A DNA stretch of 64,000 bases from Halofilum ochraceum (GCF_001614315.2 NZ_LVEG02000001.1:620001-684000), one strand, 5' to 3'. Shown: positions 43,871-59,704, counted from the stretch's first letter. Notes: generated by a model not told the origin, from the letters alone. Program-made: numbers and translations.

Positions 43871-44728
43871 ATGTCAGCCATGCACAAATGGTGTCTCGCC
43901 GCAGCGATACTGGTTCTGACTGGCGGCTGCGCCGGACTGGAACAGGCGCTGGAAGATCGCAAGCCGAAGGTCTCGATGGAAGGGATGCGCCTCGCGGCCG
44001 TCGACTTCGATCGCGCCCGGGTCGTCTTCGATGTCGTCATCGACAACCCGAATCCCGTCGGGATCGATCTCGCGGGGTTCGATTATGTCCTCCGTCTCGG
44101 CGGCAACGAATTCCTCTCTGGCAAACGCGACCGTGCGGTCCGCCTGCCGCCGGATGGCAGGGAATCCATCGCCATACCGCTGGACATACCGTTTGCACGC
44201 GTCGCGGAGTTGCCCGGCGACCTGCGTGGGCGTCAGAGCGTGGACTATGGCCTCGACCTCGGGCTCGACTTCGATCTGCCCGCTCTCGGTCGTCAAAGGC
44301 TCGGGACATCCACCACCGGCAACATCCCGATACCGCAACGGCCCGGAATCTCGCTTGAAGGCGTGCGGGTGGCGGAGCTTGGATTGTCGGGCGCCGAACT
44401 CGTCCTCGAACTCGGCATCGATAATCCGAACGACTTCGGCATCGATCTGGATCGTCTGGTCTACGCCCTTGCCATCAACGGGCGTCGCTGGGCCGGGAGC
44501 AGCCGCGAGACCGGCCTCTCACTTGCCCCCGAGGGCAGCACTGCCGTGGAGCTTCCGCTAAAGGTCAACTTCGGTGCGATCGGCATGGGTGCCTACGAAC
44601 TGCTGCGGGGCGGGGCAAGCGCGGATTATCGCTTCACGGCCGACATCGCCGGCGATGCGGGGCTGCAGGGCTTCGGCGCGTTCGATTTTCCCGTCGAGCG
44701 CAGTGGCCGGATCAATCTGGCACGCTGA
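43871..44728 (+). CDS. LEA14-like (LEA_2) lipoprotein with two repeats
   Basis: 285 aa from MSAMHKWCLAAAILV; ATG 43859 is equally possible. The signal ends in a lipobox LVLTGGCAG. Two water-stress/LEA_2 domains follow, each with the family motif: VVFDVVIDNPNPVGIDLAGF and LVLELGIDNPNDFGIDLDRL. LEA14-type proteins are associated with desiccation or osmotic stress; in bacteria the function of these lipoproteins is not established. Convergent with the aminotransferase. Confidence 0.87.
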   Translation: MSAMHKWCLAAAILVLTGGCAGLEQALEDRKPKVSMEGMRLAAVDFDRARVVFDVVIDNPNPVGIDLAGFDYVLRLGGNEFLSGKRDRAVRLPPDGRESIAIPLDIPFARVAELPGDLRGRQSVDYGLDLGLDFDLPALGRQRLGTSTTGNIPIPQRPGISLEGVRVAELGLSGAELVLELGIDNPNDFGIDLDRLVYALAINGRRWAGSSRETGLSLAPEGSTAVELPLKVNFGAIGMGAYELLRGGASADYRFTADIAGDAGLQGFGAFDFPVERSGRINLAR

Positions 44729-44746
44729 AGCGAGGCGGCACGCTGG

Positions 44747-46048
44747 TTACGCGGCCTGGTGCCCTGGCGCCATTTCCGTCAGTGAATGCTCCAGGATCGC
44801 AAGGCCTTCCTCGACGATCGCGTCCGATGCCGTAAGCGGCACCAGAATCCGGATGGTATTGCCGTAGACGCCGCAGGAAAGGAGGACCAGGCCGTGCTCA
44901 CGCGCGCGGGCGCAGAGGGCCCTGGCGGCCTCGGGGGCGGGGGTCGTGCTGCCTGCCGCCGTGACCAGATCGAATGCGATCATCGAACCCAGTCCGCGCA
45001 GTTCTCCGATCGGGTGGACGTCGTCGCGGGCGGCGATCTGCTGGAGTCGGGAGACGATCTGACTGCCCAGCGTTGCCGACCGTTCGACCAGTCCTTCCTG
45101 CTCGATCGCATCCAGCACGCCGAGCGCGGCGGCGCAGGCGACCGGATGGCCGGCGTAGGTACCACCGAGGCCGCCCGGTTGCGCGGCATCCATGATGTCG
45201 GCCTTGCCGACCACCCCTGCCAAAGGGAAACCGCCCGCCAGCGACTTCGCGACCGTCATAAGATCCGGCTCGATACCCGCGTGTTCCACCGCGAACAGCT
45301 TGCCCGTGCGGGCGAAGCCACTCTGTACCTCATCGACGATCAGGCAGATGCCATGCGCGTCGCAAAGCTCGCGCAGGCGCTGCAGGAGGGAGGGTGGGGC
45401 GACGTTGAAACCGCCCTCGCCCTGGACCGGTTCGATGATGATGGCGGCCACGCGTTCGGGTTCGACGCGCGTGCGGAACAGCCACTCGAGCGCCGCGAAC
45501 GAATCGTCGACGGTGATCCCGTGGGCCGCCATGGGGAAGGGGACATGATGCAGATCGCCCGGGAATGGTCCGAAGTCGCGCTTATAGGGGTCGACCTTGC
45601 CGGTCAGGCCCATGGTCAGCAGCGTGCGGCCATGGAAACTGCCGTTGAACGCGACCACGTCCGAGCGCCCGGTCCAGGCGCGGGCAGCCTTGACCGAGTT
45701 CTCGACCGCCTCGGCGCCCGTGGTTACGAACAGGCTTTTCTTCGCTGAAGACCCGGGTGCGAGCGCGTTCAGGCGTTCGGCCAGCTCGACATAGGGTTCG
45801 TAGGGTGCGACCGCCCACGCGGTATGCGTGACGCGCTGGAGCTGCTGCTCGACACGCCGCATGACGGCCGGGTGCCGGTGGCCTGTGTTCAGCACCGCGA
45901 TGCCGCCGGCGAAGTCGATGTAGCGGTATCCCTCCACATCCCACAGCTCGGCATTTTCGGCCCGATCGACAAAGAACGGCGCGCCCGGCGTGACGGCGCG
46001 CGGCGTCGCTGCCGCACGCCGCCCATTCAGACTGGCGTTATCGTTCAT
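44747..46048 (-). CDS. gabT: 4-aminobutyrate-type aminotransferase (GabT-like)
   Basis: 433 aa from MNDNASLNGRRAAATPRAVT with a GGGAG site; the upstream open frame is not used. Class III PLP fold: TTGAEAVENSVKAARAWTGR, FNGSFHGRTLLTMGLTG, IIEPVQGEGGF, LIVDEVQSGFARTG and the PLP lysine K268 (VAKSLAGGFPLAGV), the same number as in E. coli GabT. It converts GABA (or a similar omega-amine such as diaminobutyrate or putrescine) to the semialdehyde. No succinate-semialdehyde dehydrogenase is adjacent. Substrate therefore moderately certain. Confidence 0.85.
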   Translation of the reverse strand: MNDNASLNGRRAAATPRAVTPGAPFFVDRAENAELWDVEGYRYIDFAGGIAVLNTGHRHPAVMRRVEQQLQRVTHTAWAVAPYEPYVELAERLNALAPGSSAKKSLFVTTGAEAVENSVKAARAWTGRSDVVAFNGSFHGRTLLTMGLTGKVDPYKRDFGPFPGDLHHVPFPMAAHGITVDDSFAALEWLFRTRVEPERVAAIIIEPVQGEGGFNVAPPSLLQRLRELCDAHGICLIVDEVQSGFARTGKLFAVEHAGIEPDLMTVAKSLAGGFPLAGVVGKADIMDAAQPGGLGGTYAGHPVACAAALGVLDAIEQEGLVERSATLGSQIVSRLQQIAARDDVHPIGELRGLGSMIAFDLVTAAGSTTPAPEAARALCARAREHGLVLLSCGVYGNTIRILVPLTASDAIVEEGLAILEHSLTEMAPGHQAA

Positions 46049-46112
46049 GTGATCGCTCCCGCGCATGCTCAAACCGGCTCGATTTCGTACCTGCAGCGGA
46101 CCTAGGCCGCCT

Positions 46113-46676
46113 TCAGGCCTGACCGAAACCGGCCTCGTGGCGGTGGTCGTCGCCATGGTGAACCGGCGGCTGCGGAGTCGTAGCACTCATCTCGTCGGCC
46201 TCGTGCCGCGTGGCCTCCGGCTCGGGCGCCGCTTCGCGCGGGGCCGCCGGTACCCGGGCGGCGACGGTCCACACATGGCCGAACGGATCGATGAAACGGC
46301 CCATGCGTTCGTCGGAACGCTCGCTGATCTCGATCCGCGTCATCGGCAGCAGCGCGTGGGCACCGGCCTCCAGCGCGCGCTCGAAAACCGCGTCCGGATC
46401 CGCAAGGAACACCTTCTGGCCGACCGGGGTCCCGCCCAGGGCGAGAGGCGACAGCAGGCCCCATTCGGGCATTTCCTCGGCCATCAGGATCAGGGAGCCG
46501 CCGATCTTGAGTTCGACCTGGCTCACGCGTTCGCCTTCCGCCTCGTGGCTGCGGGGACCGGCCTTGGCCTCGAATACGGTTTCGTAGAACTCGACGGCCT
46601 GCTCGACACCCCGGACGACGAGGCCCGGCGTGACGGTGCGGTAGCCTTTCGGTACGGGATTGATCTTCTGCGTCAT
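46113..46676 (-). CDS. VOC-family (PhnB/glyoxalase-like) protein
   Basis: 187 aa. The VOC fold is seen in VTPGLVVRGVEQAVEFYETV and in MGRFIDPFGHVWTVAARV, matching PhnB-like 3-demethylubiquinone/glyoxalase-like proteins. A C-terminal tail rich in His, Glu and Ala (RHEADE; HHGDDHRHE) might bind metal. Substrate unknown. It lies 64 bp from the aminotransferase on the same strand. Confidence 0.8.
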   Translation of the reverse strand: MTQKINPVPKGYRTVTPGLVVRGVEQAVEFYETVFEAKAGPRSHEAEGERVSQVELKIGGSLILMAEEMPEWGLLSPLALGGTPVGQKVFLADPDAVFERALEAGAHALLPMTRIEISERSDERMGRFIDPFGHVWTVAARVPAAPREAAPEPEATRHEADEMSATTPQPPVHHGDDHRHEAGFGQA

Positions 46677-46753
46677 GGTGGTCAGTTCTCCAGATGACCG
46701 CGACCGCGACCGCGGTCGATTGCCTGCGATTGCTCTTGCTCCGTGCCGACATC

Positions 46754-47170
46754 ATGTTTCATGATGTGGATATTGAAGGCCATGATGTCAGCACCATGGG
46801 CCATGATGCAAGTCTCGGCGTCGCCACCACCATTTCCCAGGCGGATCTCGCCTACCTGCGATCGGTCGGCCGTGTGGGGGAATTCGCGGTGGTCTACCGT
46901 ACATACCGGCACCAGGCCGGCGGCGGCTTCGGCCGCCAGGAACAGCATCCGCTGACCTGGGGCGTGCTGGTCTACGTGGACGGTGTGCTCGCGCGCATGT
47001 ACTCCGTGCGGGGCGCCGCGCGCGAGTGGACCAGTCTCGATCGTCTCGAGCGGTGGCTCCGCCAGCAGGGGTTCCGCTACTGGTGGACCCGTAACGATCT
47101 CGAGCCGACGGCCCTCTTCGAGGGCGAGGCGGAGAGCGCGACCGTTCCGGGCGAGGCGACGGATGAATGA
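46754..47170 (+). CDS. Small protein of unknown function with N-terminal HD repeats
   Basis: 138 aa if it starts at MFHDVDIEGHDVSTM; starts at 46694 or 46796 are also possible. I do not recognise the family. The body (ISQADLAYLRSVGRVGEFAV, then TWGVLVYVDGVLARMYS and LRQQGFRYWWTRNDLEP) looks like a genuine globular protein with conserved aromatic residues. The first ~20 residues are three xHDxxxx heptads coming from a 21-bp DNA repeat, which may instead be upstream control DNA. Divergent from the VOC gene. Confidence 0.55.
   Translation: MFHDVDIEGHDVSTMGHDASLGVATTISQADLAYLRSVGRVGEFAVVYRTYRHQAGGGFGRQEQHPLTWGVLVYVDGVLARMYSVRGAAREWTSLDRLERWLRQQGFRYWWTRNDLEPTALFEGEAESATVPGEATDE
46760..46808. repeat. 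Three CATGATG motifs at exact 21-bp spacing
   Basis: CATGATG begins at 46760, 46781 and 46802, i.e. two helical turns apart on the same DNA face. They lie in the divergent region between the VOC gene and the small unknown gene. They could encode the HD heptads or be binding sites of a regulator. Confidence 0.6.
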
Positions 47171-47296
47171 AAAGCGCTCGCCGCGCGCCTTCGGATTGCG
47201 GGCGGTGAAGCGTACGCGTATGTTTCCATGCGCATATAACAACGACACGCCCGCGCCGTCGGCCGGAGATCGGGAATCAGCACAATCGGGGATCGA

Positions 47297-48241
47297 ATGA
47301 CACCGTTTTCAGTCGCCGGCGTACAGATGTACGTCTCGGCCACCACCAGCAACGTCAGCGAGATGCGCCGCCAGCTCGCGATCCTGGTCCATCAGTTCCC
47401 CTGGGTCGACATGGTCGTCTTCAGTGAACTGGCACCGTATGGACCGCTTCCGGGCAATGCCCCCGAGGACGCCGCCGCGGCCGAAGCCGAGTTCCAGGAG
47501 ATGGCGCGGGAGTTCGGCGTGTGGCTGGTTCCAGGATCCATGTTCGTCCACGACCAGGGGGGCATGTACAACACGGCCATGGTGCTGGATCCGGACGGCG
47601 TCATCGTCGGGCGGTATCGGAAAATGTTCCCGTTCACCCCCTATGAGCAGGGCGTGGAGCCGGGGCACGACTTCCTTGTATTCGACGTCCCGGGTGTCGG
47701 CCGCTTCGGCCTGACCATCTGTTACGACCTCTGGTTCCCGGAGGTGGCCCGCACGCTGGCGTCGATGGGCGCGGAAGTGATCCTGGCACCCACCTTGACG
47801 AATACGATCGATCGGGGCGTTGAACTGGCTATCGCCCGGGCCATGGCCGCGGTCAACCAGTGTTATGTGATCGACGTGAATGGGGTCGGTGACGGCGGCT
47901 ACGGACAGTCCACTTTCGTCGGTCCCCAGGGCAACGTGATCCACCAGTCGGGCGCCGGTCCGGAGCTCGTGCCGCTGCAGCTCAATCTGGAACGGGTTCG
48001 CTGGGAGCGCGAGAACGGAATCCATGGTCTCGGGCAGGTGCTCAAATCGTTCCGGGACCGGCGGGTGGAATTCCCGGTCTATCGCTGGGAAACCTTCGAC
48101 AGCACCTATCTCGACAGCCTCGGCGAGATCCGCAAGCCGGATCGGCGTCAGCCACCGAAGGCGGCCGGTACGCATCCGCGCCCAGACGATCTCCAGTTGC
48201 CGCCCACCGGCGACGGCACGCCCGGATTCCAGCCGGGTTGA
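47297..48241 (+). CDS. Nitrilase-superfamily amidase (carbon-nitrogen hydrolase)
   Basis: 314 aa with a GGGGATCGA site. The catalytic Glu-Lys-Cys triad is E44 in VFSELAPYG, K109 in RYRKMFPF and C142 in ICYDLWFPE. The region around C142 resembles aliphatic amidases more than true nitrilases. It hydrolyses or transfers a C-N bond of an amide; substrate unknown. It opens a block of four enzymes on the same strand (decarboxylase, ATP-grasp, C45 acyltransferase), with gaps of 127, 79 and 138 bp. The C-terminal ~45 residues are proline-rich and probably disordered. Confidence 0.85.
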   Translation: MTPFSVAGVQMYVSATTSNVSEMRRQLAILVHQFPWVDMVVFSELAPYGPLPGNAPEDAAAAEAEFQEMAREFGVWLVPGSMFVHDQGGMYNTAMVLDPDGVIVGRYRKMFPFTPYEQGVEPGHDFLVFDVPGVGRFGLTICYDLWFPEVARTLASMGAEVILAPTLTNTIDRGVELAIARAMAAVNQCYVIDVNGVGDGGYGQSTFVGPQGNVIHQSGAGPELVPLQLNLERVRWERENGIHGLGQVLKSFRDRRVEFPVYRWETFDSTYLDSLGEIRKPDRRQPPKAAGTHPRPDDLQLPPTGDGTPGFQPG

Positions 48242-48368
48242 CTCCGTCAGACCGGATATCGGCCGCGCAGGGCGTGAGCCGCCGTGGCATCCTCGCGATG
48301 CAGGCCGGGCATTGCCCGGCTGCATGGTCCACCCGCCACCCGATCCGCCGAGGGCCCGCACGGTGAGC

Positions 48369-51119
48369 ATGACGCTGTCTCCGGGACACTATTACAACGC
48401 CTCGCAGCTGCGTGCCGACACCTGGCAGCGGCTCAAGCACGACTCGATGCGCCTGGCGGAGCACGTATCGAGCGGCCGCGAGGTGCAGCAACTGCGTGAG
48501 CGGGTGCGAGCGGCACTCGAGACACTGACTCCCATCGAGACCTACTGGGCTTTCCCGGGGCCGTTCCATTTCCGCCAACTGCATGACTTTTTCAACGATG
48601 AAGAGTATGTAGAACTCGCCCATGAAGTCGGGCGTCTGGTGCGGGCGATGGTCTCCGGGAGTTACCGGCGCCGGCGTCTCGATCAGGACCAGGAAAGCCA
48701 CTTCGACGACCTCGATGACCACGAGGCGAGTGACGATTTCTCCAGCGATCCGCAGGCGGGGCGGCCTTATTTCGAGGTCATGGTCGTCGACCACATGTCA
48801 CACCAGGCGAAGCAGTCGCTGCGCCATGGCCTGCATCGGATGCGGCGCTCCGAGGACGCATTCCTGTACGAGACGGTGATCGTGCCCTCACTCGAGGATG
48901 CCGTGATTGCCGCATTGCTCAATCCGATCATCCAGGCGGTCGTCATCCGCTACGATTTCCCCCTGAAGACGCAGAACGAACAGCCGCTGATCCAGCGTGA
49001 ATTGAGCCACGTCTCGCTCGACCAGGCGGCGGAGGCCGAGCCATCGGAACGGGGGCTACTCCTGGCGAGTCTGCTGTTCGATCTCCGGCCCGAGGTCGAT
49101 GTCTACCTCGTGACCGATTTCCCGGTCGAAGATATCGCCGTGCGGTTGCCCGATAACGTCCAGCGCGTGTTCTATCAGCAGGAAGACTTCCTGGAGCTCC
49201 ACCTGAACCTGCTGCGCGGCATCAATCGGCGCTACCGCACCCCGTTTTTCGAGGCGCTGAGCGAATACAGCCGCCAGCCGACCGGTGTGTTTCACGCCAT
49301 GCCCATCAGTCGCGGCAAGTCGATATCCAAGTCGAACTGGATCCGCGACATGGGCGAGTTCTACGGGATGAATATCTTCCTCGCCGAGACTTCGGCGACA
49401 TCCGGTGGACTGGACTCGCTGCTGGACCCGCACGGTCCCATCAAGGAAGCCCAGGAGGCCGCCGCGCGCGCGTTCTTCGCGCAGCGCACCTTCTTCGTCA
49501 CCAACGGCACGTCGACCGCCAACAAGATCGTGGTGCAGGCGCTGGTACGCCCGGGCGACATCGTTCTGGTCGATCGCGATTGCCACAAGTCGCATCATTA
49601 CGGCCTTGTGCTCGCCGGCGCCGAGGTGGTCTACCTCGACAGTTATCCGCTCGACGACTTCTCGATGTACGGCGCCGTACCGCTGCGCGAGATCAAGCGC
49701 AGCCTGCTGAAACTCAAGGCGGCGGGCAAGCTGCATCGCGTCAAACTGCTCCTGCTCACCAACTGCACCTTCGACGGCATCGTCTACAACGTTCAGCGCG
49801 TGATGGAGGAGTGCCTCGCGATCAAGCCCGACCTCGTTTTTCTCTGGGATGAGGCCTGGTTCGCGTTCGCCTCGCTGGGCGCCACCTACCGCCAGCGCAC
49901 CGCCATGTGGGCGGCCCGGAAACTGCGCGAGCGGATGGCGAGCGAGAGCTACCGCGAGGCGTATCGCGCGCAGGTCGCGGCGCTCGAAGGGGCCGACGAC
50001 GAAACCCTGCAGTCGACCCACCTGCTTGCGGATCCAGCCGCCGTGCGGATGCGCGTGTATGCCACGCACTCGACCCATAAAACGCTGACGGCGCTGCGCC
50101 AGGGTTCGATGATCCACGTCCACGATCAGGACTTCAAACACCTGAATGAGGACGCGTTTCATGAGGCCTACATGACGCATACCTCGACCTCACCGAACTA
50201 CCAGATCCTTGCATCGCTGGACCTGGGGCGTCGCCAGGTGGAGCTTGAGGGCTACGAACTGATCCAGAAACAGGTCGAAATGGCCATGGTCCTGCGCCAG
50301 CGCATCCGCAGCCACCCGCTCCTGTCGCGCTGGTTCCGCTTCCTCGAGACCGCGGATCTCATCCCCGAGGAATTCCGCGGCACCGGCAGTGCATACGAAT
50401 CGGAGGTGGATGGCGGCAAGGGCGAGGTGCTATGGGATGCGTGGACCGACGGCGAATTCGTGCTCGACCCCACCCGCCTGACCCTGTTCGTCGGCGCAGC
50501 GGGGATCGAGGGCAACGAGTTCAAGAATGCCCACCTGATGGACAAGTACGGCATCCAGATCAACAAGACCTCGCGCAACACCGTGCTGTTCATGACGAAC
50601 ATCGGCACGACGCGCTCCTCGGTGGCGTATCTGATCAAGGTGCTGGTCGCCATCGCGCGTGATCTCGACGGGCAGCTCGAGGACATGTCGCGGACGCAGA
50701 AGCGGATCCACGAGCAGCGCGTGCGGGCGCTGACGAGCGAACTGCCGCCGCTGCCGGACTTCAGCTATTTCCATGACCGGTTCCGCATCGATGCGGCCGG
50801 CGATACCCCCGAGGGCAATATCCGCGAGGCGTTCTTCCTGTCGTACGACGAGCCGGCCTGCGAATACCTCGGACTGAATAACCGCGAGATCGACCGCGAA
50901 ATGGCATCCGGACGCGAGATCGTATCGGCCATGTTCGTGATCCCGTATCCGCCGGGTTTTCCCATTCTGGTCCCGGGGCAGGTCGTATCGAACGATATAC
51001 TGGATTTCATGCGGGCGCTCGATGTAACCGAGATTCACGGCTATCGGCCGGAACTCGGGTTGCGCGTCTTTACGCAGGCGGTGTTGGGCGACGAAAGCAG
51101 CGCGGGCACGGGGGCCTAA
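48369..51119 (+). CDS. Large Orn/Lys/Arg-type PLP decarboxylase of unknown substrate
   Basis: 916 aa from MTLSPGHYYNASQLRADTW (a GTG two codons earlier is possible), much longer than the usual 710-755. The N-terminal ~380 residues have a wing-like region without close resemblance to characterised enzymes. The PLP domain follows: AETSATSGGLDSLLDPHGP, FFVTNGTSTANKIVVQALV, FLWDEAWFAF and THSTHKTLTALRQGSMIHV, with the PLP lysine at K571. About 60 extra residues (ARKLRERMASESYREAYRAQ) sit between the WDEAW and STHK motifs. It should make an amine from a basic amino acid, but the partner genes suggest a special product. Confidence 0.82.
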   Translation: MTLSPGHYYNASQLRADTWQRLKHDSMRLAEHVSSGREVQQLRERVRAALETLTPIETYWAFPGPFHFRQLHDFFNDEEYVELAHEVGRLVRAMVSGSYRRRRLDQDQESHFDDLDDHEASDDFSSDPQAGRPYFEVMVVDHMSHQAKQSLRHGLHRMRRSEDAFLYETVIVPSLEDAVIAALLNPIIQAVVIRYDFPLKTQNEQPLIQRELSHVSLDQAAEAEPSERGLLLASLLFDLRPEVDVYLVTDFPVEDIAVRLPDNVQRVFYQQEDFLELHLNLLRGINRRYRTPFFEALSEYSRQPTGVFHAMPISRGKSISKSNWIRDMGEFYGMNIFLAETSATSGGLDSLLDPHGPIKEAQEAAARAFFAQRTFFVTNGTSTANKIVVQALVRPGDIVLVDRDCHKSHHYGLVLAGAEVVYLDSYPLDDFSMYGAVPLREIKRSLLKLKAAGKLHRVKLLLLTNCTFDGIVYNVQRVMEECLAIKPDLVFLWDEAWFAFASLGATYRQRTAMWAARKLRERMASESYREAYRAQVAALEGADDETLQSTHLLADPAAVRMRVYATHSTHKTLTALRQGSMIHVHDQDFKHLNEDAFHEAYMTHTSTSPNYQILASLDLGRRQVELEGYELIQKQVEMAMVLRQRIRSHPLLSRWFRFLETADLIPEEFRGTGSAYESEVDGGKGEVLWDAWTDGEFVLDPTRLTLFVGAAGIEGNEFKNAHLMDKYGIQINKTSRNTVLFMTNIGTTRSSVAYLIKVLVAIARDLDGQLEDMSRTQKRIHEQRVRALTSELPPLPDFSYFHDRFRIDAAGDTPEGNIREAFFLSYDEPACEYLGLNNREIDREMASGREIVSAMFVIPYPPGFPILVPGQVVSNDILDFMRALDVTEIHGYRPELGLRVFTQAVLGDESSAGTGA

Positions 51120-51198
51120 CGGGTCAATACAACGGAACGGTCGCCGCCCGTGCATGAACGGGGAAGCGGGACGGCCGGCTCATGAGGGGGCGCAGGGC

Positions 51199-52665
51199 AT
51201 GACACAGAAGCGCGGAAAAAAGAAGCTCAAAGGGATTTCCGATATCCGCCGGTATTTTCACCGCAATTCGGACCCGATCTACTTCATCAGCGCAACGAAT
51301 TTCAACCTGCTCGGACTCGACGAGTGGGTCAAGAACTTCAAGTACATCAATTACATGGATTGTTACGACGGACGCCACCCGAACACGCTGGCACCCAGCC
51401 CCGAGCCGCATCCGGAGTTCCAGTCGATCGAAGAGATCAATAACTACCTGCTGGAGCACAAGGAGGTCATCGACTGGATCAAACAGCGGGGCGGGAGGCC
51501 CAAGGCGGTCTTCCTCATGTTCGACGAATCCACGGAGAAACTCGCCAAAGAACTCGGGCTGAAGGTCTGGATGCCGTCGGCGAAACTGCGAAGCCGACTC
51601 GATGACAAGATCGAAACGGTCCGGATCGGCAACAAGGCGGGCGTGCCGTCCGTCCCGAACATGCTGGTTCACATCAAGTCGTACGACGACCTGATGGCGA
51701 AGGCCGAGAAACACGGGCTGGGCCGCGACCTCGTGCTGCAGTCGGCCTATGGCGATAGCGGCCATACGACATTCTTCGTCTCGAAACGACGGGACTTCGA
51801 TCGGCACGCCGGGGAAATCGTCGACCAGGGCGAGATCAAGGTCATGAAGCGCGTCGACGTGCGCCAGGCGACACTGGAGGCGTGCACGACGCGCCGCGGA
51901 ACGATCGTTGGCCCGTTGATGACGGAGATCGTGGGGTTCAGCGAGTTGACGCCGTATCGCGGCGGCTGGGCGGGGAACGAGATCTTCGCGGACGCGTTCA
52001 CCCCGGAGATCCGCGCCAGGGCGCGTGATCTCACGTTCCGGTTTGGCGAGCAGTTGCGCAAGGAAGGGTATCGTGGCTACTTCGATCTCGATTTCCTCAT
52101 CGACAAGAAGACCGGGGAACTCTGGTTGGGCGAACTGAATCCCCGGATCACCGGCGCCAGCTCGATGACGAACCACGCGGCCTTCGCGCACGCGGATGCG
52201 CCGCTGTTCGTGTTCCATCTGCTCGAAATGTCCGGCGTGGATTTCGATCTGGACGTGCACGAGCTGAACGCCCGCTGGTCGGACCCGGACAACATCGACA
52301 GCTGGAGCCAGGTCGTCATCAAACACACCGAAGAGACGGTCGACGTCGTCGAATCGGCACCGGAAACCGGCATCTACAAATTGACCGATGAAGGCATGGT
52401 CTTCAGTCGTTTCGACTATCACCGGCGTGCCGTGGAGAACGAGGATGAGTGCTTCTTCATGCGCATCGCCGGTCCCGGCGACGTCCGTTATGAAGGGGCC
52501 GATCTGGGCATCCTGATCACCCGCGGACGCCTGATGACCAAAGGGTTCCGGCTCAACAAGCGCGCCCGGCGCTGGATCGAAGGCGTCAAGAGTCAGTACG
52601 CTGGGCGTCCGGCGGCGGAGGAAGGGCAGCGGGTTCCTGAACCGGGGGCCTTCAAGATCTTCTAG
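51199..52665 (+). CDS. ATP-grasp ligase of unknown substrate
   Basis: 488 aa from MTQKRGKKKLKGISDI, preceded by AGGGGG. ATP-grasp elements are seen in DLVLQSAYGDSGHTTFF, TEIVGFSELTPYRGGWAGNE and GYFDLDFLIDKKTGELWLGE with the metal-binding ELNPRITGASSMTNH. Such enzymes activate a carboxylate as acyl phosphate and join it to an amine or thiol. No biotin or carrier domain is present, so carboxylase is unlikely despite similarity to that fold. The neighbouring decarboxylase suggests an amine acceptor. Substrates cannot be told from sequence. Confidence 0.8.
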   Translation: MTQKRGKKKLKGISDIRRYFHRNSDPIYFISATNFNLLGLDEWVKNFKYINYMDCYDGRHPNTLAPSPEPHPEFQSIEEINNYLLEHKEVIDWIKQRGGRPKAVFLMFDESTEKLAKELGLKVWMPSAKLRSRLDDKIETVRIGNKAGVPSVPNMLVHIKSYDDLMAKAEKHGLGRDLVLQSAYGDSGHTTFFVSKRRDFDRHAGEIVDQGEIKVMKRVDVRQATLEACTTRRGTIVGPLMTEIVGFSELTPYRGGWAGNEIFADAFTPEIRARARDLTFRFGEQLRKEGYRGYFDLDFLIDKKTGELWLGELNPRITGASSMTNHAAFAHADAPLFVFHLLEMSGVDFDLDVHELNARWSDPDNIDSWSQVVIKHTEETVDVVESAPETGIYKLTDEGMVFSRFDYHRRAVENEDECFFMRIAGPGDVRYEGADLGILITRGRLMTKGFRLNKRARRWIEGVKSQYAGRPAAEEGQRVPEPGAFKIF

Positions 52666-52803
52666 CTTCACTGGGCGCCACGTGGTCGCGCAGCGGCGGC
52701 GAGGGGGCGGTGGGCCGGGCGCTACACTTCGGTTTCGAGCGATCAGGCGAGTCACATCAGCAAGCGCCGGGGGCGCTCGGTGTGACCGGATCGGGGAGAA
52801 AGC

Positions 52804-53808
52804 GTGGAACTGACCTTTCAGGCAGTAGCGGAACAGCGGATCGGGTCGGAATGGTCGCGCCTGTTCCGCTCATTCTGGCCCGCGTATCGGCGCTGGTTTC
52901 TGGGCGAGGGCATCGACCGGCGGCCGACCTACGCGGCCGGTCTGCGCCAGCTGCGCGAGCACATGCCGGAGCTGATCCCGACCTACGAGGCCGCCTGCGA
53001 GGCCGCCGGGGGCGGTGATCTGGAGGCGCGTTGCCTCGCGCTGTGGTCGCCGCCGGCATATGTAACCGGCTGCAGCCAGGTCGTTTGGCTTGATGATGAG
53101 CCGATGCTCATCCGCAACTATGACTACGCGCCGGGCGCCTGTGAGGGCGTTCTGCTTGATTCGTGCTGGAACGGTCGCCAGGTGATGGCCGCGACCGACT
53201 GCCTCTGGGGCGCCCTGGATGGCGTCAATGAGGATGGTCTGGCCGCATCGCTTACGTTCGGCGGCCGGCAGGTCGTCGGCGAAGGCTTCGGGATCCCCCT
53301 GATCGTGCGGTATGTGCTGGAGTTCTGTGCCGATGTCCCCGAGGCCTGCGCTGCGCTGCAACGACTGCCCAGTCACATGGCGTACAACGTGACCGTGGTC
53401 GACCGGGCGGGACGTTTCGCGACCGCCTATCTCGCGCCGGACCGCGAGACCGTCATCCGCCAGGTGCCGGTTGCCGCCAACCATCAGGGCCGGATCGACT
53501 GGCACAACTTCGCGCGCGCGACCGCGACGCTGGAGCGCGAGCGTTTTCTGTACTTCCGCCTGCAGGACAGCTCGATGACCACGGAGCGCCTGATCGACCA
53601 TTTCCTCAAACCCCCGTTGTACACGCGCGCGTATGCGAACGGGTTCGGGACGATCTACACGGCGGTCTATCGTCCGGCCAGTGGTGAGGCGACCTTCATC
53701 TGGCCGGGGAAGAGAGTGGAACAGTCATTGCACGCGTTCCGCACCGGGCAGCATCGACAGCGGTTCGATGCCGACACGGACACAACGGTCGCGGGACCGG
53801 TCCATTGA
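52804..53808 (+). CDS. C45-type Ntn hydrolase / acyltransferase
   Basis: 334 aa from a GTG after GGGGAGAAAGC. The family resembles acyl-CoA:6-aminopenicillanic acid acyltransferase (peptidase C45). An internal Gly-Cys at 89-90 (YVTGCSQVVW) is the expected self-cleavage site that exposes C90 as nucleophile. Family blocks follow: MLIRNYDYAP, GALDGVNEDGLAASLTFGG and YNVTVVDRAGR. It would transfer or hydrolyse an acyl group on an amine or amide. It closes the four-enzyme block and ends 96 bp before putA. Penicillin chemistry is not implied. Confidence 0.82.
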   Translation: MELTFQAVAEQRIGSEWSRLFRSFWPAYRRWFLGEGIDRRPTYAAGLRQLREHMPELIPTYEAACEAAGGGDLEARCLALWSPPAYVTGCSQVVWLDDEPMLIRNYDYAPGACEGVLLDSCWNGRQVMAATDCLWGALDGVNEDGLAASLTFGGRQVVGEGFGIPLIVRYVLEFCADVPEACAALQRLPSHMAYNVTVVDRAGRFATAYLAPDRETVIRQVPVAANHQGRIDWHNFARATATLERERFLYFRLQDSSMTTERLIDHFLKPPLYTRAYANGFGTIYTAVYRPASGEATFIWPGKRVEQSLHAFRTGQHRQRFDADTDTTVAGPVH

Positions 53809-53904
53809 TTTTCGATCCATCCATCATCCATTCCCACTCACGACGAAGCCACAGCCCCGGTCGGGGAGACCGCGGTCCAGGCCTCTGCAACTGAACCAAC
53901 GGGT

Positions 53905-56900
53905 ATGCCCATGTCCTCAAAGATGGTTTTCAAGACGCCCCTTTCCGAGCGTGACGCACTGCGGGCCGCGCTGGATCAGCACTACCGCGCCGACGAGAGT
54001 GACTGTATCCGCAATCTGCTCGCCGACCTCGAACTCTCCGGGGACAGCCGCAGCCGGATCCATGCCTATGCCCGCTCGCTGGTCGAGGCCGTGCGCGAGG
54101 AGAGTGCAAACCAGGGCGGCATCGACGCCTTCCTGCACGAGTACGGGCTCGCGACCCATGAGGGCGTGTTGCTGATGTGCATCGCGGAGGCCCTGCTGCG
54201 GATCCCCGATTCCGAGACCCGTGAACGCCTGATCCGCGACAAGCTGGGTAGCGCCGACTGGAAACAGCATCTGGGTCATTCGCGCTCGCTGTTCGTCAAT
54301 GCCTCGACATGGGCGCTGATGATGACCGGACGGGTCGTGGGTATGCACGATTCCGTCGGCCGCTCACCGGATGCCGCGCTGCGGCGCCTCGTGGCCCGCC
54401 TCGGCGAGCCGGTGGTGCGCGAGTCGGTGAACCAGGCGATGCGCATCATGGGTCGTCAGTTCGTGATGGGGCGCAGTATCGAGAACGCGATCGAGCGCGC
54501 CGAGAAGTGGGAGAAGCGCGGCTACAGCTATTCCTACGACATGCTCGGCGAAGCCGCGCGCACAATGGACGACGCCAAGGGCTACTTCCGCCGCTATAAG
54601 CACGCGATCAAGAAAATCGGCGAGACCGCTGGCGGGCGTGGCCCGATCAACGGGCCGGGGATCTCGGTCAAACTCTCCGGCCTGCATCCGCGCTACGAGG
54701 TCGCCAATCACGAGCGCGTGATGGAAGAGCTGATGCCGCGGCTGCGGGCGCTGTGTGTCGATGCCGCGCACTACGACATCGGCCTCAACATCGACGCCGA
54801 AGAAGCGGACCGCCTGGATATCTCCATCGACTGCATCGAGGCCATCTCGGGCGATCCCGAACTCAAGGACTGGCAGGGCTTCGGGGTCGTCGTCCAGGCC
54901 TACCAGAAGCGTGCGCCGTACGTCCTGGATGTGCTGGCCGATATGGGCCGGCGCCACGAGCGGCGATTCATGGTGCGCCTCGTCAAGGGCGCCTACTGGG
55001 ACATGGAGATCAAGCGCGCCCAGGAGATGGGCGTCGAGGACTATCCGGTGTTCACCCGCAAGGTGAACACCGACGTCTCCTATCTCGCATGCGCCCGCAA
55101 ACTCTTCGCGAACACGGATGTGTTCTATCCGCAGCTGGCCACGCACAACGCACACTCGATCTCCAGCGTGCTCGAGTTCGCCGGCAACAGCCGTGACTTC
55201 GAGTTCCAGCGGCTGCACGGCATGGGCGAGGACCTCTACGAGCGCGTGATCGAGCACGATCAGGTCGGCGCGGGCTGCCGCATCTATGCCCCGGTCGGTC
55301 AGCACGAGGATCTGCTGGCCTATCTCGTGCGGCGATTGCTCGAGAATGGCGCCAACAGCTCGTTCATCAATCGCATCCAGGACGAGTCATTGCAGATCGA
55401 TGAGCTGATCGCCGATCCGGTGCCGCAGGTACAGGCGTTGACCCGCGTGCCGCACCCGCGGATCCCGTTGCCGCGCGATATGTTCGGCCCGGAGCGGACC
55501 AACGCACTCGGTGTCGATCTCACCGATCGGACGGAACTGCAGGGCCTCAAGGACGGCATGGAGGCCGCGACCAGCAAGGCGCGACGGGCGGATCCGATCA
55601 TCAATGGCGAAGCGGTTGACGGTCAGGATCAACGCGAGATCCGCGCACCGCACGACCGCGGGCGGGTCCTCGGTGAGACCAGCGAGGCGACCGACGAGCA
55701 GATCGAACGCGCCCTCCAGGCGGCCCATGATGCCGCCCGCGAATGGGCGCGAACCCCGGTCGCGGAGCGGGCGGCCTGCCTCGAGCGTGCCGCGGACCTG
55801 ATGGAAGAGCGCATGACCCGGCTGCTGGGTCTGATCGTCGCCGAGGTCGGCAAGACGCTCAACGATGCCGTGGCCGAGGTACGCGAAGCGATCGATTTCT
55901 GTCGCTACTACGCGCTGCGGGCGAAACAGGACTTCTCCAGCGAGATCCAGCTGCGGGCGCCGATCGGTGTCGACCGCAGGATCGAGCTGCAGGGCGGTGG
56001 CGTGTTCACCTGCATCAGCCCTTGGAACCTGCCCTTCGCCATCTTTAACGGCCAGGTGACGGCGGCGCTGGTGGCGGGCAACTCCGTGCTCGCCAAGCCG
56101 GCGGAACAGAGCCCGCTGATCGCAGCCGAGGCCGTGCAACTGCTGCACGAGGCCGGCATCCCGCCGGCCGTGCTGCATCTGGTTCCGGGCGAGGGCCGAC
56201 GCGTCGGCGGCAAACTGACTGCGGACCCGCGCGTGACCGGTGTCTGCTTTACCGGGTCGACCGAGACCGCGCGGGCGATCAACCGCGTGCTGTCGAAGCG
56301 GGATGGCCAGATCCCGCCCCTGATCGCGGAGACCGGCGGCCAGAACGCGATGATCGTCGATTCCACCGCGCTGACCGAACAGGTCACGCGCGATGTCGTC
56401 ACCAGCGCATTCCAGAATGCCGGTCAGCGCTGCTCCGCTCTGCGCGTACTGTTCGTGCAGGAGGATGTGGCCGACCGCACGCTGGACATGATCTCGGGCG
56501 CGATGGATGAACTGACGGTCAGCGATCCGCAGTTGATCTCGACGGACGTGGGGCCGGTGATCGACGACAACGCCCAGAAGATGCTGAAGGATCACATCAA
56601 GCGCATGCTGGGCGATGCCACCGAAATCCGCCGTGCGCGTCTGGGCCCGGCGACCGAGAACGGGAGTTTCGTGACGCCGGCGGCGTTCGAGATTGACGGC
56701 ATCGAACAGCTCAAGCGCGAGGTATTCGGGCCGGTGCTTCATGTCGTTCGTTACAAAGCGGACCGGCTCGACAAGGTGATCGACTCGATCAACGCCACCG
56801 GCTATGGCCTGACCATGGGCGTGCACAGCCGGATCGACGAGATGTGGAAGCAGTGCTACCAGCGCGCCCGTGTCGGTAACAACTATGTCAATCGCAATCA

Positions 56901-57870
56901 GATTGGTGCCATCGTCGGCGTACAGCCGTTCGGTGGACAGGGCCTGTCGGGGACGGGTCCCAAGGCGGGCGGACCGCTGTATCTCCACCGCTTCGTCTCG
57001 GACCGCCCGGTGAACGGCGATGCCCGGGCCGCGTCCTCGGCCGGTAATGGTGCGACCGCGATCGACGAGCAATGTGTCAGCGCCTCGGGCCTCAAGCGCG
57101 CGGTGGAAGCCCTGGCGAAGAACGGCTCCGAATGGCACGAGGGGCCCGAGGCCCGATCAGGCGTACTGGAGAAAGCGGCCGATGCCTTCGAATCGGAACC
57201 GAAGGCGCTGCGGGGCATCGACGCCGCCGGCGACGGTGAAGCCCGGCGCGGCGGCGATTATCTGCGCGTGTATGCCGCCCAGGTGGAAGCGGATTTCGCC
57301 TCGCCGATGCAGCTGGCCGGCCCAACCGGCGAGCGCAACGAACTGTCGTTCTGGCCGAAGGGTGCCGTGGCCTGTATCGCGTTGGACGGGCAAAGCGCGG
57401 TCGGGAACCTGATCGCCCAGGCCGGCGCCGCACTCGCGGCCGGCAACACCGCCGTCCTCTGGCACCCGGAAGCGGGCGCCGCGGAGGCGGTCGTCAAAGT
57501 GTTGCACAAAGCGGGCGTGCCGCAGTACGCGGTCCAGGCCGTCGCACCGGGCAAGGATGCGACGCTCTCCGATCTGATCAGTGCTGAAGCAATCGATCTG
57601 GTCGCGTTCGCGGGCGAGGGGCCGACGGCACGCGAGGCCGCGACCGTACTGGCCGGGACCGAGGGACCACTGCGCCAGCTGGTGCTGTTCCAGGAAATGC
57701 CCGCCGATTCGGACGACTTCATCGGCCAGGGGCAGCCCGTGGCGAGCAGTCCGCACTATCTGTATCGCTTCGTCCACGAGCGTTCGCTGTCCGTGGACAC
57801 GACGGCCTCCGGCGGCAATGCCTCGCTGCTGTCGATCGAGGACCATCCGGGCCTCCCCGGCGAGAGCTGA
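53905..57870 (+). CDS. putA: Bifunctional proline dehydrogenase / P5C dehydrogenase PutA
   Basis: 1321 aa; starts at MPMSSKM or two codons later. There is no N-terminal ribbon-helix-helix DNA-binding domain, so it is not self-repressing. The PRODH barrel shows GPGISVKLSGLHPRYE, RFMVRLVKGAYWDMEIKRA and GAGCRIYAPVGQHEDLLAYL. The aldehyde dehydrogenase shows SPWNLPFAIFNGQVTAALVA, AETGGQNAMIVDS and the nucleophile C843 in FQNAGQRCSALRV. A further ALDH-like domain of ~250 residues ends the protein, as in long PutAs. It oxidises proline to glutamate. An intrinsic terminator follows. Confidence 0.97.
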   Translation: MPMSSKMVFKTPLSERDALRAALDQHYRADESDCIRNLLADLELSGDSRSRIHAYARSLVEAVREESANQGGIDAFLHEYGLATHEGVLLMCIAEALLRIPDSETRERLIRDKLGSADWKQHLGHSRSLFVNASTWALMMTGRVVGMHDSVGRSPDAALRRLVARLGEPVVRESVNQAMRIMGRQFVMGRSIENAIERAEKWEKRGYSYSYDMLGEAARTMDDAKGYFRRYKHAIKKIGETAGGRGPINGPGISVKLSGLHPRYEVANHERVMEELMPRLRALCVDAAHYDIGLNIDAEEADRLDISIDCIEAISGDPELKDWQGFGVVVQAYQKRAPYVLDVLADMGRRHERRFMVRLVKGAYWDMEIKRAQEMGVEDYPVFTRKVNTDVSYLACARKLFANTDVFYPQLATHNAHSISSVLEFAGNSRDFEFQRLHGMGEDLYERVIEHDQVGAGCRIYAPVGQHEDLLAYLVRRLLENGANSSFINRIQDESLQIDELIADPVPQVQALTRVPHPRIPLPRDMFGPERTNALGVDLTDRTELQGLKDGMEAATSKARRADPIINGEAVDGQDQREIRAPHDRGRVLGETSEATDEQIERALQAAHDAAREWARTPVAERAACLERAADLMEERMTRLLGLIVAEVGKTLNDAVAEVREAIDFCRYYALRAKQDFSSEIQLRAPIGVDRRIELQGGGVFTCISPWNLPFAIFNGQVTAALVAGNSVLAKPAEQSPLIAAEAVQLLHEAGIPPAVLHLVPGEGRRVGGKLTADPRVTGVCFTGSTETARAINRVLSKRDGQIPPLIAETGGQNAMIVDSTALTEQVTRDVVTSAFQNAGQRCSALRVLFVQEDVADRTLDMISGAMDELTVSDPQLISTDVGPVIDDNAQKMLKDHIKRMLGDATEIRRARLGPATENGSFVTPAAFEIDGIEQLKREVFGPVLHVVRYKADRLDKVIDSINATGYGLTMGVHSRIDEMWKQCYQRARVGNNYVNRNQIGAIVGVQPFGGQGLSGTGPKAGGPLYLHRFVSDRPVNGDARAASSAGNGATAIDEQCVSASGLKRAVEALAKNGSEWHEGPEARSGVLEKAADAFESEPKALRGIDAAGDGEARRGGDYLRVYAAQVEADFASPMQLAGPTGERNELSFWPKGAVACIALDGQSAVGNLIAQAGAALAAGNTAVLWHPEAGAAEAVVKVLHKAGVPQYAVQAVAPGKDATLSDLISAEAIDLVAFAGEGPTAREAATVLAGTEGPLRQLVLFQEMPADSDDFIGQGQPVASSPHYLYRFVHERSLSVDTTASGGNASLLSIEDHPGLPGES

Positions 57871-57885
57871 AGGCGGCCCAGGAAA

Positions 57886-57913
57886 GGGGCCGGCGGGTAT
57901 GCCCGCCGGCCCC
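57886..57913 (+). terminator. Intrinsic terminator of putA
   Basis: Perfect 12-bp GC stem GGGGCCGGCGGG / CCCGCCGGCCCC with a 4-nt loop, 15 bp after the putA stop, followed by GTTTGTTCT. Confidence 0.8.
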
Positions 57914-57977
57914 GTTTGTTCTCCAAATTCTCTGACGCGGGTACCGCACAGCGCCCGCTGGGCAGTAATCCCGGGCC

Positions 57978-58544
57978 TTAATCGATTGCCGGAATCCGGC
58001 CGACCACACGCACGTCGGCGTCATCTTCGACCGCTACGACGACAAGTTCCCCCTCGCGCGGGAACACGCCCGTCAGGGCGGTGATATTCACCTGGTGGGT
58101 CACAAGCACGGGGGGCGGATCGAGCGCGGCCTCGCGCAGGAACGCCCGCAGCCGCGGCATGATCTCCGCGCGCGTGTACGCGTCGCCGAAGAAGGAGTTG
58201 AGTCCGTCGAGCGGCTCGACCGGCCCGATATCCAGCAGTTCCGCCGTCTCGGTGCAGCGGCACCAGCGACTGGTATAGACCGTTCTCCCATCGATGCCGC
58301 GTTCGCGCAGCCGCGCCCCGGTCTGCCGCGCCTGCTCGCGGCCCGTCTGATCCAGATTGCGCTGCGTACTGCAGTCGCCGAGCGTGAAGTCGGCTGGATC
58401 GCCCGTTCCCGGTGCGTTCGCATGTCGCATGAGAATCGCGTGGCCCGGTTGTGACATCGCCTCCCATGCGCTCGACGGATCGGCGGTGGCCGGCACCGAC
58501 AGCAGCGTCAGGAGTACGGTCAGACAGCGATTGATCGTCCGCAT
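57978..58544 (-). CDS. Periplasmic histidine phosphatase family protein
   Basis: 188 aa from MRTINRCLTVLLTLLSVPAT with a signal peptide. The phosphohistidine motif is R40-H41 in LMRHANAPG and the second histidine lies in LVTHQVNITALTG; SRWCRCTETAELL gives the conserved downstream arginine. It resembles exported SixA/phytase-like members of unknown substrate. Convergent with putA, and read away from the GlxA-type gene on the same strand. Confidence 0.88.
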   Translation of the reverse strand: MRTINRCLTVLLTLLSVPATADPSSAWEAMSQPGHAILMRHANAPGTGDPADFTLGDCSTQRNLDQTGREQARQTGARLRERGIDGRTVYTSRWCRCTETAELLDIGPVEPLDGLNSFFGDAYTRAEIMPRLRAFLREAALDPPPVLVTHQVNITALTGVFPREGELVVVAVEDDADVRVVGRIPAID

Positions 58545-58648: not shown

Positions 58649-59704
58649 CTACGTCATTTCTGCATCCAGCCCCTTCCGGTCAGCCCGCGGGGATATACCG
58701 AAATAACCGCGGTATCGACGGCTGAAATGGGCCGGGCTGCGGAAACCGCTTCGGTGCGCGATCTCGGTGATGCTGGCGGCCGTATGCAGCAACAGTTGGC
58801 GGGCGCGGGCCAGACGGACACCCATGTAGAATGCGGTCGGCGTGGTGGCGAGATGGGCTTCGAACAGCCGCTCGAGTTGGCGCTCGGACACACCGATGTA
58901 GCCCGATATCTCGGTCAGCTGTATCGGTTCCTCGACGTTCGCTTCCATCAACGCGACCGCACCGCTCAGTCGGTCCTGGCCGGTACCGATACGGTGGCGC
59001 AATGGAATCCGCTGTCGGTCGTTTCGATCCCGCATGCGTTCGTGAATCAACAGATCGGCCGCGGCGGGGCTGGTGGTGCCGTCACCACAGGTCTCTGCGA
59101 TGAACTGCAACATCATGTCCATAGCGGCCGTGCCGCCGCTGCAGGTATAGCGCTGACGGTCGACCTCGAATACATGCTCGGAGGCGATGATGCGCGGAAA
59201 ATCGGCCGTCAGCGAAGGCAGGTCCTGCCAGTGAATTGTGCAGCGGTAACCATCCAGCAGACCGGCACGGGCCAGCAGCCAGCTGCCCGTGTCGATTCCG
59301 CCCAGCCCTGTGCCGCGTCCGGCCATGCGCCGGAGCCAGTGGATCAGCCGGCGCTCGTCCGGGAACTCGATCGGGTTGGGACCGCAGAGGAACAGGGCTG
59401 TCACCGCGGGTAGATCGTCAATCGCGCAGTCGACCTCGGTACGGACCCCGTTGCTGGCCACTATGGGCTCCCCGTCCGGCGAACAGGTGAGGGCACCGAA
59501 CAAAGTCTCGTGCACGACCATATTGGCCATGCGCAGCGGTTCGATCGCGGAAGCGAAGGCGATGTAGGAGAACCCGGGTACCAACAGGAGCGCGACGCGG
59601 TGGGGTGCCGCGTCGAACGTCGCTCCATTGAGCGGGACGGGCGCGGCTGCGCTGTGTGTTTCCGGTTCCGGGTGTTCGCGTGTTGCGGTCATGGCGTCAG
59701 CCAT
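58649..59704 (-). CDS. GlxA-family AraC regulator, likely of creatine use
   Basis: 351 aa (MADAMTATREH; an inner ATG at 59692 is possible). An N-terminal DJ-1/GATase1-like domain (HRVALLLVPGFSYIAFASAI; GGIDTGSWLLARAGLLDGYR) is joined to a C-terminal AraC double HTH (ISGYIGVSERQLERLFEAHL; IAHRSGFRSPAHFSRRYRGY). This architecture is that of GbdR, CdhR and related activators of betaine, carnitine and sarcosine catabolism. Position next to the symporter and creatinase genes suggests creatine or its product as inducer. That is an inference from neighbours. Confidence 0.85.
   Translation of the reverse strand: MADAMTATREHPEPETHSAAAPVPLNGATFDAAPHRVALLLVPGFSYIAFASAIEPLRMANMVVHETLFGALTCSPDGEPIVASNGVRTEVDCAIDDLPAVTALFLCGPNPIEFPDERRLIHWLRRMAGRGTGLGGIDTGSWLLARAGLLDGYRCTIHWQDLPSLTADFPRIIASEHVFEVDRQRYTCSGGTAAMDMMLQFIAETCGDGTTSPAAADLLIHERMRDRNDRQRIPLRHRIGTGQDRLSGAVALMEANVEEPIQLTEISGYIGVSERQLERLFEAHLATTPTAFYMGVRLARARQLLLHTAASITEIAHRSGFRSPAHFSRRYRGYFGISPRADRKGLDAEMT

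Follow-up and report, generated by a model that had tools for sequence, protein, structure and literature searches.

Four adjacent genes of Halofilum ochraceum, coding for a nitrilase-superfamily amidase (NIT), a large OKR-fold decarboxylase (ODC), an ATP-grasp ligase (ATPG) and an Ntn acyltransferase/hydrolase (C45), recur in the same order in bacteria of three phyla, and we propose that they represent one horizontally mobile catabolic cassette feeding the GABA shunt. The pathway is most likely tied to the breakdown of glutamate and GABA rather than to polyamines, and its purpose appears to be catabolism rather than synthesis. For the complete reading, with ODC acting on glutamate or a gamma-glutamyl amide, ATPG making an amide, and C45 and NIT cleaving amides, we estimate a probability of about 40%. 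The genes were found in a window of 64,000 nucleotides (C1:620001-684000 within the 3.64 Mb genome), where they occupy positions 47297-53808 of the plus strand in the order NIT-ODC-ATPG-C45, next to three smaller or divergent genes:

44747..46186, minus strand: GABA transaminase-type class III aminotransferase (TIGR00700, 562 bits, cutoff 507)
46113..46676, minus strand: glyoxalase-fold protein, 187 aa (PF00903)
46694..47170, plus strand: small conserved protein, 158 aa as called, between the divergent genes and NIT
47297..48241, plus strand: NIT, nitrilase-superfamily amidase, 314 aa (PF00795, 118 bits; E44, K109, C142)
48369..51119, plus strand: ODC, large OKR-fold (group III) PLP decarboxylase, 916 aa (PF01276, 258 bits; PDB 9n0n/9n0o, 894 bits)
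51154..52665, plus strand: ATPG, ATP-grasp ligase, 503 aa, PRK06524 family (NF005096, 751 bits, cutoff 684)
52804..53808, plus strand: C45, Ntn acyltransferase/hydrolase, 334 aa, GTG start (NF040521, 161 bits, cutoff 85; PF03417, 103 bits)

As the earlier note had described, the four genes lie head to tail with small gaps (127, 34 and 138 nt), and no further gene is present within any of the three gaps. We use letter names for them because no functionally informative family cutoff was reached, except by C45 (NF040521) and ATPG (NF005096). Translation of ODC may start from ATG at 48369 (916 aa) or from GTG at 48366 (917 aa). The aminotransferase gene, which we infer to be a cassette member in the window, and the glyoxalase-fold gene are oriented divergently upstream of NIT. 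Distant homologues of the glyoxalase-fold protein (30-33% identical) occur in two cassettes of the more remote ATPG clade 2 (L066 and L135; see below). The small ORF at 46694-47170 matched no Pfam or NCBIfam model, a homologue adjoins C45 in locus L018 (57% identity over 129 aa), and it is a possible extra cassette member in gammaproteobacteria. A PutA gene follows 96 nt downstream of the cassette and is not among the recurrent cassette neighbours at other loci. No consensus sigma-70 promoters were detected in 44000-58500, terminator matches in this region stayed at chance level, and none of the four proteins matched the PADLOC models for anti-phage defence. A GbdR-like AraC regulator is encoded on the minus strand at 58649-59704 (348 bits, cutoff 480), and a related regulator lies near the cassette in L066.

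A genome search for co-occurrence of the four families in this order had been set beforehand as a test of the proposed four-enzyme block, and it recovered NIT-ODC-ATPG-C45 in exact order and on one strand, within 6.1-7.8 kb, in 38 of the 56 loci which carry a close (clade-1) ATPG with enough flanking sequence. With ATPG fixed and enough flank, all four genes were present in 42 of 62 loci. This recurrence of four families in one order is far beyond chance. The carriers span Proteobacteria, Planctomycetota and Myxococcota: a single scan of genome contigs, which retrieves fairly close relatives only, yielded 17 named loci from Alpha- and Gammaproteobacteria, Phycisphaerae, other Planctomycetota and the myxobacterium Enhygromyxa, and the cassette was also found on plasmids of Roseobacter, Pseudorhodobacter, Cupriavidus, Shinella and rhizobia. 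Strong ATPG matches (E at most 1e-20) were obtained from 9 of 369 species-level genome samples of the window's class, from 10 of 385 samples of the class of genome G439, and from 52 of 245, about a fifth, of its order, which we take as Rhodobacterales. The possibility raised in the earlier note that the four genes are not found together elsewhere is thereby contradicted. Because marine as well as soil bacteria from at least three phyla keep this order, the four genes appear to form one uncharacterised pathway; we found no published description of the set in the literature searched, whose coverage was incomplete, in line with the earlier note, which knew of no named pathway for it.

The variant orders are rearrangements of one gene set: NIT-ATPG-C45-ODC occurs in L083-L085, and ODC-ATPG-C45 without NIT in rhizobia, L018 and L065. 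The distance matrices of the four proteins correlate with Spearman coefficients of 0.78-0.93, values inflated by shared ancestry because many loci come from one order; for ODC and ATPG the coefficient was 0.925, to which shared ancestry also contributes, and none of 2000 Mantel permutations reached it. Apart from G305, every tested genome with a clade-1 ATPG also had an ODC of the cassette type (subfamily 1), and the ATPG-negative genomes had none; genome G012 contained ODC subfamily 2 only. The cassette is accessory, since two genomes of the same genus lack both ATPG and ODC. A second ATPG clade (43-46% identical) is found in ATPG-C45-NIT triads without ODC (L134:9020-12569, L135:1073-5408, L068:833-4395), with a TRAP transporter and a glyoxalase as neighbours in L135 and an FmdA formamidase and a class I GATase gene in L134.

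Both predicted amide-cleaving enzymes carry intact catalytic residues. The NIT triad E44, K109 and C142 is invariant in an alignment of 25 relatives; the protein stays below all NCBIfam equivalog cutoffs and falls outside every named branch tested, namely AguB, aliphatic amidase and deaminated glutathione amidase (best score 76 bits, cutoff 410). For C45, the predicted structure (pLDDT 94.2) aligned best with isopenicillin N acyltransferase (2x1c; Z 30.0, rmsd 3.1, 303 residues aligned), ahead of NAAA and acid ceramidase. The model thus has the AAT fold with a predicted autoproteolytic Cys nucleophile, C90, which is invariant among aligned relatives. Judged from their families, C45 and NIT presumably cleave amides.

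ATPG matches the model NF005096/PRK06524, labelled as biotin carboxylase, with 751 bits (cutoff 684) and has no Pfam match. Its AlphaFold model (pLDDT 88.9) shows an ATP-grasp fold about equally close to biotin carboxylase, PurK and PylC (Z 22-24 by VIA-align, 320-395 residues aligned), and no single ligase stands out in the structure search, where carboxylases, PurK and PylC tie. In biotin carboxylase, the QVEH after NPRI carries the catalytic Glu. Because ATPG reads ELNPRITGA(S) where carboxylases have NPRIQVEH, and because neither a biotin carrier nor a carboxyltransferase partner is found among the identified recurrent neighbours of the cassette, we rejected the biotin carboxylase label and regard ATPG as ligase-like. 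It presumably makes an amide bond, as judged from its family. The amide-making and amide-breaking chemistry proposed in the earlier note fits the four families.

The earlier assignment of ODC as an Orn/Lys/Arg-type decarboxylase held for the fold and failed at the substrate-binding segment. The protein has an OKR_DC_1 domain with the PLP lysine K572 in an STHK motif, invariant among relatives, and stays far below the cutoffs of all NCBIfam decarboxylase models (best 211 of 968 bits). In the Lactobacillus 30a enzyme, the Glu of the EKT segment contacts the basic side chain of the substrate. A profile alignment against the lysine decarboxylases LdcA and LdcI placed INKT of the ODC family at their VEKT, and the acidic residue of the GIxVEKT segment is absent from the family. 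Its position is taken by N733, which is invariant together with K734 and T735, and R737 is nearly so. A second pointer comes from ODC subfamily 2, which is 46-49% identical to the cassette ODC and adjoins one or two genes for AspT, an aspartate-alanine antiporter, in six of six loci examined (L177:9959-16275, L178:8008-14471, L179:9833-16072, L180:9962-14481, L182:8802-16365, L183:8553-15134); the AspT identity was confirmed at 642 and 612 bits (cutoff 547). Decarboxylase-antiporter pairs are classical acid-resistance modules, and subfamily 2 with AspT is possibly an undescribed one. Locus L179 additionally holds an HdeA/HdeB chaperone gene and AspD, which could be the reason for AspT there. 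Because basic amino acids are normally served by APC-family antiporters, pairing with AspT favours a substrate that is acidic or neutral, and the pairing in the sister subfamily is circumstantial evidence which suggests a non-basic substrate for the ODC family. Together with the invariant Asn in place of the EKT acid, this makes glutamate or a glutamyl compound the probable substrate of ODC, which on present evidence should not be named an ornithine, lysine or arginine decarboxylase. ODC is homologous to Rv2531c of Mycobacterium tuberculosis over 899 residues (894 bits; PDB 9n0n/9n0o/9n0p), that is, over nearly its full length. The structure of Rv2531c has been solved, and no activity has been assigned to it (PMC12910592). 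Work with a mutant of its gene (adi) did not find adi crucial for growth on arginine (PMC4569260), a result which is neutral for the substrate of ODC. For OdcA and OdcB of the CATCH-N system of S. meliloti (PMC7268258), no tie to the cassette ODC family was established.

The metabolic context was derived from a survey of 65 loci, whose genes were called heuristically by ORF and GC-frame score and then clustered. A GabT-type transaminase, 43-60% identical to that of the window and passing TIGR00700 (552 bits, cutoff 507), adjoins the cassette in more than ten loci, a succinate-semialdehyde dehydrogenase (SSADH) gene is present in L062 (TIGR01780, 691 bits, cutoff 646), and the omega-transaminase PRK07483 follows directly after C45 in several Rhodobacterales loci (769 bits, cutoff 485, in L121). 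A PuuR-like HTH-cupin regulator lies by the cassette in about 11 loci. Rhizobial neighbours are a dipeptide ABC transporter, an amidase, a serine hydrolase and glutamate dehydrogenase. Guanidinobutyrase adjoins the cassette in six loci, in four of which AruI (733 bits, cutoff 500) and DadA (472 bits, cutoff 383) are also present. In L053, L056, L061 and L064, three plasmids and one gammaproteobacterium, NIT-ATPG-C45 is merged with guanidinobutyrase, AruI, an aldehyde dehydrogenase, D-amino acid dehydrogenase and alanine racemase, which amounts to a complete arginine-to-GABA route. A simple loss of ODC from these loci was rejected, as an ODC (59%) was found elsewhere on plasmid NZ_CP084753.1. 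The neighbouring ureohydrolase is guanidinobutyrase rather than agmatinase (514 bits with PDB 3nio versus 321 with guanidinopropionase). Because most genomes tested contain a ureohydrolase of some kind, only orthologues of at least 57% identity are informative as a marker; these were present in 16 of 28 cassette genomes versus 5 of 18 others, a weak association. GABA is the common denominator of the cassette contexts; it would arise from glutamate or arginine and be passed onward by GabT and SSADH.

The Rhodobacterales cassettes have a TAXI-TRAP transporter, in some loci together with a USP gene, directly upstream of NIT, and its TAXI proteins point to glutamate. Those of 13 operons are 57-61% identical to VcGluP and all retain V44, Y45, S75, Q93, H123, E125 and Y200 of that protein, while three further contacts are changed (S40G, D157Q, M201T), and the ligand may therefore be a related compound. 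VcGluP itself binds glutamate specifically and is encoded alongside a USP gene and a membrane component with DUF3394 (PMC11574862). Cereibacter sphaeroides depends on a TAXI-TRAP pair for its sodium-dependent growth on glutamate (PMC12632250). When a cassette-linked TAXI protein was used as query, other linked copies were 75-87% identical and unlinked ones 57-67%; the linked copies thus form their own group and seem to be reserved for the cassette. In the genome of the window, TAXI is not cassette-linked, and the nearest homologue (60%) is encoded at C1:609119-610063, about 57 kb from NIT.

In the proposed pathway, glutamate would be imported by the dedicated TAXI-TRAP transporter (in Rhodobacterales), and either glutamate or a gamma-glutamyl compound derived from it would lose CO2 in ODC, giving GABA or a 4-aminobutyryl amide. 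ATPG would join a carboxylate and an amine in the amide-forming, ATP-spending step, and C45 and the nitrilase-type enzyme would cleave amides, setting GABA and its partner free. Succinate would then be reached through GABA transaminase and succinate-semialdehyde dehydrogenase, and in some genomes GABA may also come from arginine via AruI, aldehyde dehydrogenase and guanidinobutyrase encoded at the same locus. Several observations stand against this model. Plain conversion of glutamate to GABA needs neither an ATP-grasp ligase nor two amidases, so the model leaves the central chemistry unexplained; the AspT link comes from a sister subfamily of only 46-49% identity; the TAXI link is missing from the window's own genome, and three VcGluP contacts differ in the linked proteins; and the neighbours vary by lineage, with a dipeptide ABC transporter and amidase in rhizobia and ectoine genes in L083 and L085. 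The ligase and the two amide hydrolases would make sense if the pathway ran through a gamma-glutamyl (or 4-aminobutyryl) carrier amide. ATPG would then attach the gamma-carboxyl of glutamate to an amine, ODC would produce the 4-aminobutyryl amide, and C45 and NIT would release GABA and recycle the amine, a butirosin-like logic for glutamate breakdown with OKR decarboxylases working on non-basic substrates; this specific version is speculative, and we hold it to be rather doubtful. In butirosin synthesis, BtrJ, BtrK, BtrH and BtrG provide an ATP-grasp ligase, a PLP decarboxylase, an acyltransferase and amide cleavage around glutamyl and GABA units. The cassette differs by a decarboxylase of another fold and by having no acyl carrier protein.

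A biosynthetic role, in which C45 would be an acyltransferase and the product a GABA- or glutamate-derived amide serving as compatible solute or signal, is unlikely, if conceivable. Marine or halophilic bacteria are frequent among the carriers (Marivibrio, Enhygromyxa, Roseobacter ponti, Phycisphaerales), a USP gene is part of Rhodobacterales operons and the ligase spends ATP, but the cassette is also found in Cupriavidus, Shinella and beside nif on rhizobial symbiosis plasmids, and its neighbours are importers and genes for GABA and arginine breakdown. The earlier suggestion of a modified polyamine, an N-acyl amine or a compatible solute found no backing: GabT, SSADH, guanidinobutyrase, AruI and importers make up a catabolic neighbourhood, the TAXI importer linked to the cassette matches one specific for glutamate, and ODC shows signs of a non-basic substrate. 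It is extremely improbable that each of the four genes serves a known pathway of its own and that their neighbourhood is coincidental. The gaps of 127 and 138 nt could hold promoters and every fold is known, but 38 of 56 loci, spread across three phyla, keep the order, and ODC subfamily 1 is near-absent from genomes without ATPG.

Two further catabolic schemes start from basic amino acids or their amines. ODC might work as a PLP oxygenase in an oxidative decarboxylation of arginine (or lysine), converting arginine to 4-guanidinobutyramide, which NIT would hydrolyse to 4-guanidinobutyrate for guanidinobutyrase and GabT, with ATPG and C45 as accessory enzymes. Prokaryotic ODC has a decarboxylation-dependent oxidation side activity (PMC7497351), guanidinobutyrase adjoins the cassette in L062, L127 and the AruI loci, and the loci with an amidase-signature enzyme (L018, rhizobia) lack NIT, as if one amidase step were needed. 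However, NIT is kept in AruI loci without an adjacent ODC, where guanidinobutyramide would not arise, the scheme gives ATPG and C45 no role, and both the Asn in place of the acidic EKT residue and the AspT link of the sister subfamily speak against a basic substrate, making this route quite unlikely. Catabolism of a putrescine-type diamine by protective acylation, as in the Puu pathway, is also improbable: ODC would form the diamine, ATPG would acylate one end, a transaminase and an aldehyde dehydrogenase would oxidise the other, and C45 or NIT would deacylate the product to GABA. While the PuuR-like regulator, the omega-transaminase after C45, SSADH, GabT and a polyamine-type ABC binding protein in L127 would suit this scheme, it is countered by the dedicated glutamate-type importer, the lost acidic EKT residue, the AspT pairing of the sister subfamily and the lack of an amine oxidase, and the AruI loci have no need of such steps.

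The preferred glutamate/GABA reading shares ATP-dependent amide formation, amide hydrolysis, GabT, SSADH and a PuuR-type regulator with the E. coli Puu pathway. Unlike the latter, which employs a ligase of glutamine-synthetase fold and a class I GATase as hydrolase, the cassette has an ATP-grasp ligase, C45 and nitrilase-type hydrolases and a decarboxylase, and no amine oxidase. PuuA-type ligase, PuuB oxidase and PuuD GATase were not found among the identified recurrent neighbours, the only class I GATase being that of L134. The cassette is therefore not a member of the Puu pathway, as it shares no ligase, oxidase or hydrolase family with it. Decarboxylation combined with a dedicated transporter (TAXI-TRAP, or AspT in the sister subfamily) and GabT/SSADH resembles the GABA shunt and the GadB-GadC and AspD-AspT systems, whereas ODC has an OKR fold instead of that of group II GAD, and three amide enzymes are added. 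The arginine transaminase (ATA) pathway via AruI and guanidinobutyrase is physically merged with NIT-ATPG-C45 in the four loci named above, but AruI and guanidinobutyrase are not encoded in the window, and ODC is not adjacent in the merged loci. The Rv2531c locus is not known to have ATPG, C45 or NIT neighbours.

The lack of a named pathway for four genes whose order persists through three phyla leaves a considerable gap in the picture of bacterial nitrogen metabolism. Should ODC prove to act on glutamate or glutamyl amides, the annotation of many large-type enzymes as "Orn/Lys/Arg decarboxylases" would be misleading, the activity of Rv2531c would become directly testable with a short substrate list, and the AspT-linked sister subfamily would represent a new decarboxylase-antiporter pair.

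Some cassette copies are located in unusual surroundings. On Rhizobium leguminosarum plasmids (L058:9243-23389), the cassette without NIT adjoins nifHDKEN, followed by a dipeptide ABC transporter, an amidase and a serine hydrolase, and some copies are disrupted (L054, L057). In two gammaproteobacterial genomes (L083:5019-17683 and L085), it is inserted among ectoine-degradation genes, with DoeA of L083 scoring 670 bits (cutoff 613). In L086:3269-10506 and L087:8923-16043, the gene before a divergent ODC-ATPG pair encodes a urea transporter domain in fusion with an M23 peptidase domain.
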